Shown here: positions 58,110 through 61,968 of the stretch, in pieces
Layout: every line of letters begins with the position of its first letter
Numbering within the stretch: the first letter of the stretch is position 1
DNA from: Maridesulfovibrio sp.
GTDB taxonomy: Bacteria; Desulfobacterota; Desulfovibrionia; Desulfovibrionales; Desulfovibrionaceae
Assembly: GCF_963667685.1 (NCBI RefSeq)
Contig: NZ_OY763930.1
Span: 2,091,501 to 2,155,500 of the forward strand
Length of the DNA: 64,000 nt
Direction: 5' to 3'
Notes under the pieces: model-generated
The model's database searches: none
The model's input: the letters and a program-made list of their open reading frames with translations, nothing else
What the model was told of the DNA's origin: nothing
Position numbers and translations under genes: made by a program

Positions 58110-58196
58110 TGGTGCCGAAGAGAAGACTCGAACTTCCACGGAGAAACCTCCACTAGACCCTGAACCTAGCGTGTCTACCAATTCCACCACTTCGGC
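58110..58196 (-). tRNA. tRNA-Leu (anticodon CAG)
   Basis: The gene is 87 nt with CCA encoded. The acceptor stem is GCCGAAG / CTTCGGC; the D-arm contains TGGAATTGGTAGACA; the anticodon stem-loop CTAGG-TTCAGGG-TCTAG places CAG at 34-36; a long variable arm is present (class II); the T-arm is GGAAG-TTCGAGT-CTTCT. It decodes CUG. It stands alone, with a terminator after it. Confidence 0.95.
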
Positions 58197-58416
58197 ACTC
58201 GGTAGAAAAGTGTTTATTGATTTCAGTCTGCTTTGGCAAGTACTTTTTTAGTTAAAATGTAAATAAATTGTAAAATTAGCGAAAAACATTATGGCTAACC
58301 AAAATTTATAGTCTGGCCGAAGAAAATGACAAACCGTAAATATGGGTTTTCTAATTGTGGATGCAATTTACTCCTGCTATAAGTTACTCAATTAGAAAAT
58401 TAATAGGGGGAAACTC

Positions 58417-59457
58417 ATGGACCCGTCCGTTCTGGTACCAGCTGCCATCGGCATTTCTGTACATCCCATTTGGCCGGTGGCCCTTTCAATTGTGACTTTT
58501 TCCGTCCACCTTCTGCTAATGAATGCTGTTTTCGGAGGGGCTGCTATAGTTTTTGTCCACTCCTTGTCAGGCGGGACGCTGATCTCAAAAAATATTTCAC
58601 ATAAACTTCCGACTCTTTTGGCTTTGGCCATAAATGCAGGAGTTCCGCCGCTGCTGTTTCTGCAAGCGGTCTACGGGCAGTTCAGTTATGTTTCTTCAAT
58701 ATTAATGGCTGTTTTCTGGCTGGCTGTGATTTTTGTACTGATCAGTGGATATTATGCCATGTACATTCATAACTACCGTTATGAAAAATTGGGCGCATCC
58801 GGGCGTATGTTCCTCATGCTGGCTGTGCTGATAGGCATTACATACATCGGTTTCATGCTTTCCAATAAAATGACCCTGATGCTTCGCCCTGAAGTCTGGG
58901 TAGAGTACTTTGATGATCCTCATGGGTTTGTGCTCAATTTGGGAGACCCGGTCCTCTATCCGCGTTTTATGCATTTTGCCATATCCGCGCTGGCAGTAGG
59001 CGGGTTGTTCGTTGCTCTTGTGGGAAGGCGCAGGAATGATGCGCGATTTGTTGATACGGGCATGAAGTGGTTTTCTCGCTCAACCCTTGTCAATGTGCTG
59101 ATGGGTTTCTGGTTTCTTGTCGCCCTCCCTAAAGAAGTTATGCTCATTTTTATGGGGCAGGACCTACTTGCCACCGGGCTGCTCTGTGCAGGGCTGATCG
59201 CTCTTTTCGCAATGCTTCATGCCGGATTCACGAAGAATGTTTTTCTTGCGACTGCTGCAACTGTTTTTATTGTCCCGGTGATGGCGACTATGCGCCATTT
59301 GGTGCGGATGAAATATCTTGAGCCTTACTTCACGCTTGATACAGCCCCTGTTTCCGGTAGCTGGGACCCATTCATTCTATTCATTGCCGCGCTTATTGCA
59401 GGAGGATTCTGCATCGTCTACATGCTCAAACTCATGCTCAGGGCTGAAAGGAGTTAA
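58417..59457 (+). CDS. CydA-family-like membrane protein (small subunit of bd-like/octahaem complex)
   Basis: The protein has 346 residues with about eight membrane helices. The N-terminal HPIWPVALSIVTFSVHLLLMN (short motif H16, H31) resembles the first CydA helix with its haem-ligand histidine; the later YPRFMHFAISALAVGG aligns with CydA FVHTVASGYVTG around H186 (here also residue 186), a haem b ligand in E. coli. The CydA-type glutamate pair and Q-loop are not seen. Its gene overlaps the next (TAATG), so the two proteins are coupled and probably form a complex. It has no CxxCH. The assignment is by alignment in the head, not by search. Confidence 0.7.
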   Translation: MDPSVLVPAAIGISVHPIWPVALSIVTFSVHLLLMNAVFGGAAIVFVHSLSGGTLISKNISHKLPTLLALAINAGVPPLLFLQAVYGQFSYVSSILMAVFWLAVIFVLISGYYAMYIHNYRYEKLGASGRMFLMLAVLIGITYIGFMLSNKMTLMLRPEVWVEYFDDPHGFVLNLGDPVLYPRFMHFAISALAVGGLFVALVGRRRNDARFVDTGMKWFSRSTLVNVLMGFWFLVALPKEVMLIFMGQDLLATGLLCAGLIALFAMLHAGFTKNVFLATAATVFIVPVMATMRHLVRMKYLEPYFTLDTAPVSGSWDPFILFIAALIAGGFCIVYMLKLMLRAERS

Positions 59458-61922
59458 TGATGGAATATCCAATCTGGCATTTAACATCTTTCGGGGGCGG
59501 TTTCTGGATTGCGGTGATTGCAACTCTGCATGTTTTTGTTGCCCAGTTTGCTGTCGGCGGCGGTCTGTTTCTGGTGGTCACTGAGAAATTGGCCTACAAG
59601 ACTGAGTCAAGTGAGCTTCTGGATTACGTAAAAAAACATTCCAAGTTTTTCCTGTTGCTGACCATGGTTTTTGGTGGAGGCTCCGGGGTTGCACTCTGGT
59701 TCTGCATGGCGTTGCTTAGCCCGGAAGGAACCCTTGTTCTGGTTCGTGAATTCCTATTCGCATGGGCTACGGAGTGGGTTTGGTTTGTTGGCGAGGTAGT
59801 AGCCCTGCTAATATATTACTATTATTGGGAAAAGATGAACCGCCGAGATCACCTGATCATAGGCTGGTTTTATTTTATATTTGCGTTTCTTTCCCTCTTG
59901 ACCATTAACGGCGTGGTTTCATTCATGCTTACCCCCGGTCAGTGGGTAGCGACCCGTAGTTTCTGGGATGCCATTTTTAACCCCACATTTTGGCCCGCAC
60001 TCTTTTTCAGGACCGCACTTTGCGGCATGCTGGCCGGGTTGTTCGGGTTTGTGACTGCTGCGCGAATTCAGGATAAGAGTCTGCGTTGTATGATGGTCCG
60101 CTTTTGCGGTATCTGGACCCTGACCGGATTGGCCCTGACCGTGCTTTCCGGTTACTGGTACCTGAATTCCCTTCCGCCGGAACAAGCTCTGCTTGTTGCT
60201 TATAAGTCCCATCGCGTCGCATTTTTCATGCAGGTATTCAAGTTCACCGCTCCGGTGCTGCTGTTCGGCGGTTTGTTTATGGCTATCTGTGCTCCGCGCA
60301 GAGTAAATTTCAGCTCGGCCATGCTACTGCTGGTCGTGGCCCTGCTTTTTTACGGTTCTTTCGAATTCATGCGTGAAGCCGGACGTAAGCCCTATGTGGT
60401 CTGGGGTGAAGTTTATTCAACAAATATCACTGTGGATCAGGCCCGAAAGCTTCATGGTGAATCAATTCTGCAAAATTCAAAATGGATTCCGCAGGATCTG
60501 CGCGAAATAAACGATGACAACAGGCTTGAGGTCGGTTCATGGCTCTATCAGATGCAGTGCGGGCCTTGTCATTCAATCAACGGGCCCATGAATGATATTG
60601 TCCGCCGTACTTCAAAATATACAACTGCCGGGCTTGATGCCTTTATGTCCGGTATGGGGCGGATGAATAAATATATGCCTGAATTTTTAGGTACGGAGCA
60701 GGAGCGCAGGGCTCTGGCCGAGTATATTCACTCAATAGGTCCGGGCTACAATCCAGCCTTGCCGGAGCAGAAGTCGGCAAAGATTGAACCAGCTGCTTTT
60801 AAGCCTAATCAGGAATACGTATTAATGGCATGGCCTCTTGAGGGGTTGCGGCTGGTTATTGATAAAGACCGGACCATGTCCATTACCGATAAGGGCAGTG
60901 TTGTGCGCGCCCAGCTTCTGCTGCGTGGAGACCCGCCGGAAGTGGTTACCGGGGAAGTAAAGATTGTTTGCAAGCCTCAGGGTATGGAGGAGGCTTTCGA
61001 ACTCAATGCGGAAGATGGTTATTTCCAGTCTCCGCCTATTGAAATTTTGCCCTACACCATGACTGGTTACCAGTCCCAGCCGCCGGTTGAGGTCAGTGCA
61101 TATGACGTCGATGGGAATCTGCTTGCCAGCACAACAATTGTGCTGCCGGTATCCACCCGCCCGGGCTGCAACAATTGTCACGGCGGTGGCTGGAATCTTC
61201 CTGATCAGGGGGGATTCTCAGCGCAGACGGCAGCTGATATTGCTGCTGTTCATGACCGGGACAATCATACTGATTTCAAAAAAAGGCTTAAAAACAGCGA
61301 AGTAATTGACTGCATGTCCTGTCATGACGGAGATTTACAGCTCGACCTGTCAACTGCGTTACACGGCTTTCACGCTGTCTACCTGCGTGACACATCAAAC
61401 GAGACCTGCATGATGTGCCACCCGCAGCAGAGTTTGCGCGGCATGCATCTGGATGCCGGGCTGGAATGCATAAATTGTCATGGTGAAATGGCCAAACATG
61501 CGCTGGCCCTGCTTCAGTCCGAAGAAGACAAGCCTGTAGCTCAAAAGTTGATCAAGCTTGTTACTCCGCCAGATCTGGATGGAGATGAGCTTGATCCGCG
61601 TAAGCCGTGGGAGCAGCAGCCTGACTGTCTTACCTGTCATGTTGAATTCGGTGCACCGGAATCAGACTCGGCTTTTGGCAAGTGGACAGAAGGTAAGGAA
61701 AGGCTTTTCAGTAACCGCAAAGATGAAATGGACGCGGTTATGTGTGCTGCCTGTCATAACTCTCCACATGCCATCTTCCCGGCTGCCGACGAGAGGGACA
61801 ATCTGCGTGCGCTGCAGTATATGGGAGAAGCCCGGCCCATAGGGGCAGCCGGAACCTGCACCGTCTGCCATGAAGACGCGATGGGGTACCCTGCGCACCA
61901 TCCCGGAATGGGATTAGAGTAA
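59457..61922 (+). CDS. CydA-like membrane domain fused to an octahaem c-type cytochrome
   Basis: The protein has 821 residues. Residues about 1-310 have eight membrane helices and match CydA: H25 in ATLHVFVAQFAVGGG, the glutamate pair E106/E113 (ATEWVWFVGE), and FFRTALCGMLAG, where CydA has H186 but here R185. After the membrane, one CxxCH (368-372) sits in a mono-haem-like segment; a beta-rich section (about 440-565) follows; then seven CxxCH lie between 571 and 805 (571, 619, 651, 671, 724, 763, 801). The haem domain should be periplasmic. It may pass electrons between quinol and periplasmic carriers, or reduce oxygen. A strong terminator follows. Confidence 0.8.
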   Translation: MMEYPIWHLTSFGGGFWIAVIATLHVFVAQFAVGGGLFLVVTEKLAYKTESSELLDYVKKHSKFFLLLTMVFGGGSGVALWFCMALLSPEGTLVLVREFLFAWATEWVWFVGEVVALLIYYYYWEKMNRRDHLIIGWFYFIFAFLSLLTINGVVSFMLTPGQWVATRSFWDAIFNPTFWPALFFRTALCGMLAGLFGFVTAARIQDKSLRCMMVRFCGIWTLTGLALTVLSGYWYLNSLPPEQALLVAYKSHRVAFFMQVFKFTAPVLLFGGLFMAICAPRRVNFSSAMLLLVVALLFYGSFEFMREAGRKPYVVWGEVYSTNITVDQARKLHGESILQNSKWIPQDLREINDDNRLEVGSWLYQMQCGPCHSINGPMNDIVRRTSKYTTAGLDAFMSGMGRMNKYMPEFLGTEQERRALAEYIHSIGPGYNPALPEQKSAKIEPAAFKPNQEYVLMAWPLEGLRLVIDKDRTMSITDKGSVVRAQLLLRGDPPEVVTGEVKIVCKPQGMEEAFELNAEDGYFQSPPIEILPYTMTGYQSQPPVEVSAYDVDGNLLASTTIVLPVSTRPGCNNCHGGGWNLPDQGGFSAQTAADIAAVHDRDNHTDFKKRLKNSEVIDCMSCHDGDLQLDLSTALHGFHAVYLRDTSNETCMMCHPQQSLRGMHLDAGLECINCHGEMAKHALALLQSEEDKPVAQKLIKLVTPPDLDGDELDPRKPWEQQPDCLTCHVEFGAPESDSAFGKWTEGKERLFSNRKDEMDAVMCAACHNSPHAIFPAADERDNLRALQYMGEARPIGAAGTCTVCHEDAMGYPAHHPGMGLE

Positions 61923-61929
61923 CAGACAA

Positions 61930-61968
61930 AAAAATCCCGGTCCGAACTAAGTTCGGACCGGGATTTTT
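61930..61968. terminator. bidirectional terminator
   Basis: A perfect 18-bp stem, AAAAATCCCGGTCCGAAC / GTTCGGACCGGGATTTTT, with a 3-nt loop, separates the convergent cytochrome and DEAD-box genes. Confidence 0.9.

Follow-up and report, generated by a model that had tools for sequence, protein, structure and literature searches.

The window analysed here, a stretch of 64,000 nucleotides from Maridesulfovibrio sp. (contig NZ_OY763930.1), contains a two-gene operon that probably encodes a cytochrome c-dependent oxygen reductase with two subunits and multiple haems, a member of the cytochrome bd superfamily similar to the OR-C family, as judged from sequence comparisons and predicted models. The operon stands alone, and its two open reading frames (ORFs) lie on the same strand with a one-base overlap. 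Its parts are as follows:

58417..59457, plus strand: small-subunit ORF, 346 amino acids (ORF call)
59457..61922, plus strand: large-subunit ORF, 821 amino acids (ORF call)
59457..60431, plus strand: CydA domain of the large subunit, residues 1-325, with eight long helices, H25, E106, E113, S146, R185, E303, R306, E307 and R310, and without a Q-loop, the quinol loop (PF01654, 5doq match, model with fold search, residue census)
60489..60746, plus strand: monohaem cytochrome c domain of the large subunit, about residues 345-430, with CxxCH at 368-372
60810..61151, plus strand: beta-strand linker domain of the large subunit, about residues 452-565
61152..61919, plus strand: heptahaem cytochrome c domain of the large subunit, residues 566-821, with seven CxxCH motifs, MtrC/MtrF-like and cytochrome c7-like (Pfam, motif positions)

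Folds and residues of the two subunits

The large subunit looks catalytic, both in its sequence and in its predicted model. The CydA family PF01654 matches it with 39.5 bits (cut-off 26.2), and its membrane part displays a high-confidence predicted cytochrome bd subunit fold according to the model and the fold search. Residue conservation was established by a census of 129 large and 120 small rows (window included), which applied no haem filter and kept near relatives, while 5′-truncated rows, rows with low scores and a duplicate of the window had been dropped beforehand. H25, E106, E113, R185 and E307 are identical in 129/129 large rows, with S146 and R310 invariant or nearly so. H25, E106 and E113 are the counterparts of His19, Glu99 and Glu107 of canonical CydA, and E307 and R310 (in REAGRKPY) are those of Glu445 and the GRQPW motif, a correspondence that an earlier note on this DNA, made from the sequence alone, had overlooked. 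By sequence and structural alignment, the counterparts of the high-spin-haem residues (His19, Glu99 and Glu445) are thus all present in the large subunit as H25, E106 and E307, and in all 129 rows R185 stands where canonical CydA has His186, the ligand of haem b558.

The small subunit looks rather like a haem-binding or structural partner, again from sequence and model. H31 and H186 (PRFMH186) are identical in 120/120 small rows, M289 and R293 are invariant, the glutamate pair is absent, and the small protein of the window has no CxxCH motif. The residues named by the earlier note (H31, PRFMH186, H25, FFR185 and E106/E113) are therefore all in place and cannot be ascribed to chance in view of the census, which also assigns the b558-type histidine to the small subunit and the two glutamates to the large one. 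The wider proposal that haem and proton-path residues are divided between two paralogues needs correction, because the large subunit alone keeps H25, E106, E113, S146, E307 and R310: what remains of the division is the b558-type histidine, which stands only in the small subunit, whereas every mapped active-site residue lies in the large one.

A CydA-like fold had been expected in both proteins, and the predicted models and fold searches agree with this, neither of them lacking such a fold; the small protein has a high-confidence predicted bd-oxidase subunit fold and is CydA-like by sequence profile. Searches with family models gave a split answer, since the large protein exceeded the PF01654 cut-off but the small one had no match among Pfam and NCBIfam models up to E 1. 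Among small-subunit members compared with Pfam, 1/86 matches PF01654 (E 0.33), and PF02322 is absent among the matches listed for them, which cover 25 of 35 families. Profile comparison between the small and large subunits gave E 3e-8 to 5e-10, in agreement with the claim that they are paralogues. Against profiles of a canonical CydA set (18/31 loci, minus-strand frames left out, plus eight other CydA proteins), the small subunit reached E 0.0014 to 0.016, and the positions of His19 and His186 fell in register.

An alternative that would be compatible with the oxygen reductase, and to which we assign a minor share of probability, is that the small subunit represents a diverged CydB, so that the operon would encode a CydAB enzyme with c haems. 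Foldseek with the small model returned CydA and CydB chains intermixed in the ranking, and some TM-scores are higher to CydB (5doq_B 0.71/0.74 vs 5doq_A 0.67/0.55; 9r2g_D 0.69/0.72 vs 9r2g_A 0.61/0.56). However, the profiles put the small subunit near the large one (E about 1e-9) and CydA, comparison with CydB profiles gave no real match (E 0.09 to 0.16), and a second aligner selected a CydA chain as the best chain per entry in 10/10 bd entries. The partner is not recognisable as CydB by sequence.

Neither model contains a Q-loop between transmembrane helices 6 and 7, where the loop comprises ~ 13 residues in both, in line with the earlier note's comparison with bd relatives that lack a quinol site. 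The large protein carries CxxCH motifs at residues 368, 571, 619, 651, 671, 724, 763 and 801, i.e., the eight motifs in the 1+7 layout already counted from the sequence. In the monohaem domain, M407 is invariant and is likely the axial ligand. The heptahaem domain matches PF22113 with 42.7 bits (cut-off 30) and PF14522 with 36.9 bits (cut-off 24.8), and a sequence comparison of this part with solved structures found no relative better than E 0.009. Note that in the alignment of the window and 78 relatives (complete, at least seven CxxCH, near-copies removed, from 122 matches), the invariance of the heptahaem motifs is partly built in, because the rows were chosen for at least seven CxxCH; L044 and L102 (our locus labels) have seven motifs instead of eight. 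An even number of helices precedes the c haems, which places these on the side of the N-terminus.

The two genes form a constant pair: both occur in the same 42/58 relatives and are adjacent in 42/42, and neither occurs in the other 16. In a phylum sample of 297 genomes, the large gene was found in 53 (at least 90 bits), the small one in 52 (at least 70 bits) and both in 51, with adjacency in 50/51 (genome G218 being the exception); at E 1e-10, the tallies of the large and small genes are 57 and 53, respectively.

Electron route and competing readings

The enzyme would contain eight c haems and perhaps three others. Two high-spin haems would be held by H25 and E307, with E106 as the glutamate of an oxygen site that may bind haem d or b, and with E113 and S146 in the proton path. 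The side of the c haems and the N-terminus would be the periplasm, where cytochromes such as cytochrome c3 may donate electrons to the heptahaem domain. From there the electrons would reach the membrane haems by way of the monohaem c, and a low-spin haem that the small subunit binds through H186, H31 or M289 may serve as an intermediate. Oxygen would be reduced to water with protons taken from the cytoplasm, a reaction that would be electrogenic without pumping. In the cell, such an enzyme may serve oxygen removal and perhaps save some energy beside canonical CydAB, with no direct draw on the quinol pool. We favour a cytochrome c-fed electrogenic oxygen reductase because the oxygen-site and proton-path counterparts are intact, the quinol loop is missing, and the pair is linked to cydAB in some loci.

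The host genome (4.42 Mb, three contigs), which by kinship probably belongs to a sulfate reducer, contains canonical cydA and cydB and 13 cytochrome c3 matches in fewer proteins; it gave no match to COX1 (haem-copper oxidase) in a search that finds matches in 8/14 control genomes. Linkage to cydAB takes several forms: a Rrf2-like gene, cydA and cydB are divergent to the pair in L095, L104, L119, L127 and L135 (Rrf2 Pfam run on L119), cydAB takes the same position in L114 and L126 but with further ORF calls in between, and it is 4 kb off in L046. In a tree of 109 large rows, the first seven of these loci fall within one supported clade of ten rows and L046 falls outside; among the remaining three rows of the clade, two (L070 and L118) extend hardly at all upstream, and L084 is without cydAB in 4.9 kb. 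Most clusters of neighbours were housekeeping genes and at least one was a spurious grouping of antisense ORFs; only cydAB, Rrf2 and a NnrU-like gene were kept, the Rrf2-like and NnrU-like genes being assigned by Pfam from one member each.

Several observations weigh against the proposed oxygen reductase. The cydAB linkage is found in only 8/113 clustered loci (many with short flanks), seven of them in one clade, and thus corresponds to at most about two independent events and to modest evidence. In addition, 41/42 pair-bearing relatives also have the CydB of the canonical enzyme, so that the pair is not their sole oxygen reductase, and 16/58 relatives are without the pair. The mapping of E307 by sequence alone is weak (the second stretch of the 5doq match has 6.5 bits) and is carried for the most part by the end regions of the structural alignment, and the position of E. 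coli Trp441 (same offset) is an invariant glutamate, E303. As a separate observation, the pair occurs without a CydB or full-length CydA match in a single relative, G054 (L027; 160 contigs, 95% complete). The papers cited here by PMC number are cited from excerpts; in one of these, a D. vulgaris mutant without both characterised membrane oxygen reductases grew at 0.02% O2 to a final biomass close to that of the wild type (PMC4383621), growth for which cytoplasmic enzymes could account.

The same architecture could reduce a small oxidant other than oxygen (nitric oxide, peroxide or nitrite), as a detoxifying reductase fed by periplasmic cytochromes. Canonical bd oxidases can serve O2 and nitric oxide detoxification (PMC10839748), a NnrU-like membrane gene (below cut-off in the one scanned) lies downstream of the pair in 12 loci, and an octahaem cytochrome follows the pair in two trihaem relatives. 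We nevertheless hold this unlikely, given the complete conservation of the cytochrome bd oxygen-site and proton-path counterparts and the cydAB neighbours of one clade, accompanied by a Rrf2-like regulator in five loci. Slightly less likely still is an outward conduit, in which electrons from quinol or membrane haems would flow through the heptahaem wire to acceptors in the periplasm or at the outer surface, and the CydA site would be their entry only. The resemblance of the C-terminal domain to MtrC/MtrF domains (PF22113) would suit such a conduit, as would the proposal that a cable-bacterium CydA homologue hands electrons to the periplasm (PMC12093952), but neither model has a Q-loop, the large subunit is without the b558 histidine, and an outward conduit would make no evident use of the invariant proton-path glutamates.

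Relation to known systems

The OR-C family, reportedly defined by Murali, Gennis and Hemp in 2021, is said to combine a CydA core of the bd superfamily with a C-terminal cytochrome c and no quinol site. The proteins of the window are alike in these three traits and add the 1+7 haems, the MtrC-like domain and a constant CydA-like partner that has no c haem. Archaeal CydAA′ pairs, which according to the same work reportedly oxidise quinol, are likewise pairs of CydA paralogues; they belong to archaea, and their donor would differ. A menaquinol oxidase with accessory c haems, for which these archaeal pairs and the CydA fold might speak, is very improbable here in view of the short loop in both models and of R185 at the His186 place throughout the census. 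MtrC/OmcA-type cytochromes are decahaem proteins with two pentahaem domains, a layout to which the seven haems of our domain do not correspond, although PF22113 is over its cut-off. Canonical CydAB (qOR) shares the fold and the counterparts of His19, Glu99, Glu107 and Glu445, whereas the large subunit of the window is without Q-loop and b558 histidine, its partner is not a recognisable CydB by sequence, and its donor would differ.

The OR-C family is named in PMC13189123 and PMC11707229. For the cable-bacterium CydA homologue (CydAh), which has a periplasmic cytochrome c domain, O2 reduction has been proposed; the excerpts describing it, which are our only basis of comparison, make no mention of a partner subunit or an octahaem layout. 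CydA homologues without a complete oxidase are also described in PMC10030654, which calls it controversial what serves cable bacteria as terminal oxidase. The OR-N CydAA′ of Nitrospirota and Nitrospinota are two CydA paralogues proposed to make up a single O2 reductase that likely oxidises cytochrome c (PMC10839748, PMC12342949); they resemble the proteins of the window in being such a pair and differ in their phyla and, in the excerpts, by having no described fused multihaem domain. An enzyme of the OR-C/OR-N kind and the cable-bacterium CydA homologue have thus already been proposed in print, while the octahaem layout and the small partner's set of ligands appear undescribed, no description of either being found in the part of the open literature that was searched, a scope outside which the founding OR-C paper falls.

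Altogether, a widespread pair with complete counterparts of the bd-type active site and a multihaem input touches on oxygen reduction by anaerobes with periplasmic cytochromes and on the terminal oxidase of cable bacteria, and its presence in named Desulfovibrionaceae makes the question directly testable. More tentatively, and with the odds rather against it, the small subunit might take the place of CydB with a b haem of its own, the MtrC-like heptahaem wire might draw periplasmic or even extracellular electrons, and the missing terminal oxidase with which such anaerobes conserve energy might be found in such forms, the cable-bacterium CydA homologue included.

Layout variants and surroundings of the pair

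In a species collection, at least 561 stretches encode a relative (tblastn E 1e-3 or better), and the titles considered here come from the best 80 of them. Desulfobacterota and Deltaproteobacteria account for most of these titles; CSSED10-310, KSB1, Calditrichaeota, Aminicenantes and Bacteroidales have one record each. The closest named record among the matches listed, which may omit records very near the window, is the metagenome-assembled genome Desulfovibrio sp. UBA2564 (85% identity, partial gene), followed by uncultured Desulfovibrio, Salidesulfovibrio and Pseudodesulfovibrio records at 56–57%.

Four layouts were distinguished: (i) an octahaem large subunit with the small one, as in the window, (ii) a trihaem large subunit of 585–599 residues, (iii) a monohaem large subunit of 436–459 residues, and (iv) a monohaem large subunit with a small one bearing two c haems. 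A few rows have two CxxCH motifs, and the multihaem part is a separate adjoining gene in L055, L056, L140 and L144. In a tree of 72 rows, which took every third octahaem row, five trihaem and two dihaem rows form one supported group (96/98), long-stem monohaem rows form two (99/100 and 97/99), and the split-gene rows fall inside the octahaem part. Layouts and tree therefore indicate a membrane pair that stayed constant while its c-haem module was fused, split or swapped.

As an example of the split form, a monohaem CydA-c gene is followed by a separate cytochrome of 632–646 residues with ten CxxCH in Desulfovibrio sp. A2 (L140:6001-9261) and a relative (L144:6001-9541), the L140 cytochrome having MtrC-like and cytochrome c3 domains. 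L040, L041, L042 and L188 have a divergent, paralogous pair whose small subunit is dihaem, with a dihaem cytochrome gene directly upstream (SoxA/TsdA-like in L041, the one scanned), and three genomes of the same genus (G002, G009 and G014) combine this pair with an octahaem one. The cytochrome with eight CxxCH behind trihaem relatives lies at L145:8976-10427 and L192:7933-9435, and that of L145 has a PF11783 domain. The NnrU-like gene, as in L124:8710-9336, is on the same strand as the pair and in L124 falls just below the Pfam cut-off. In Salidesulfovibrio brasiliensis (L066:1169-3656), the large gene is in three pieces (546, 108 and 184 residues), perhaps through a frameshift or an assembly error.

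Around the operon, three further elements were recognised:

58110-58196, minus strand: tRNA-Leu (cag), upstream of the promoter-like element
58355..58383, plus strand: probable promoter, TTGTGG, 17-nt spacer and TATAAG, with TG upstream (extended -10) and TTTCTAA before it (conservation)
61930..61968, listed on both strands: terminator-like inverted repeat with an 18-pair stem, between the operon and a convergent DEAD-box helicase-like ORF

The promoter call rests on conservation because the consensus scan did not list 58355..58383; its core bases TTGT, TG and TA are kept upstream in 17/17 aligned genus loci (own included), and an identical tRNA-Leu sequence is found upstream of the pair in the same 17/17. 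The upstream neighbours are a YCII-like gene, a NMT1-like gene read from the opposite strand and a gene for an HPP membrane protein (Pfam scan), and the convergent downstream ORF was named by eye from its sequence.
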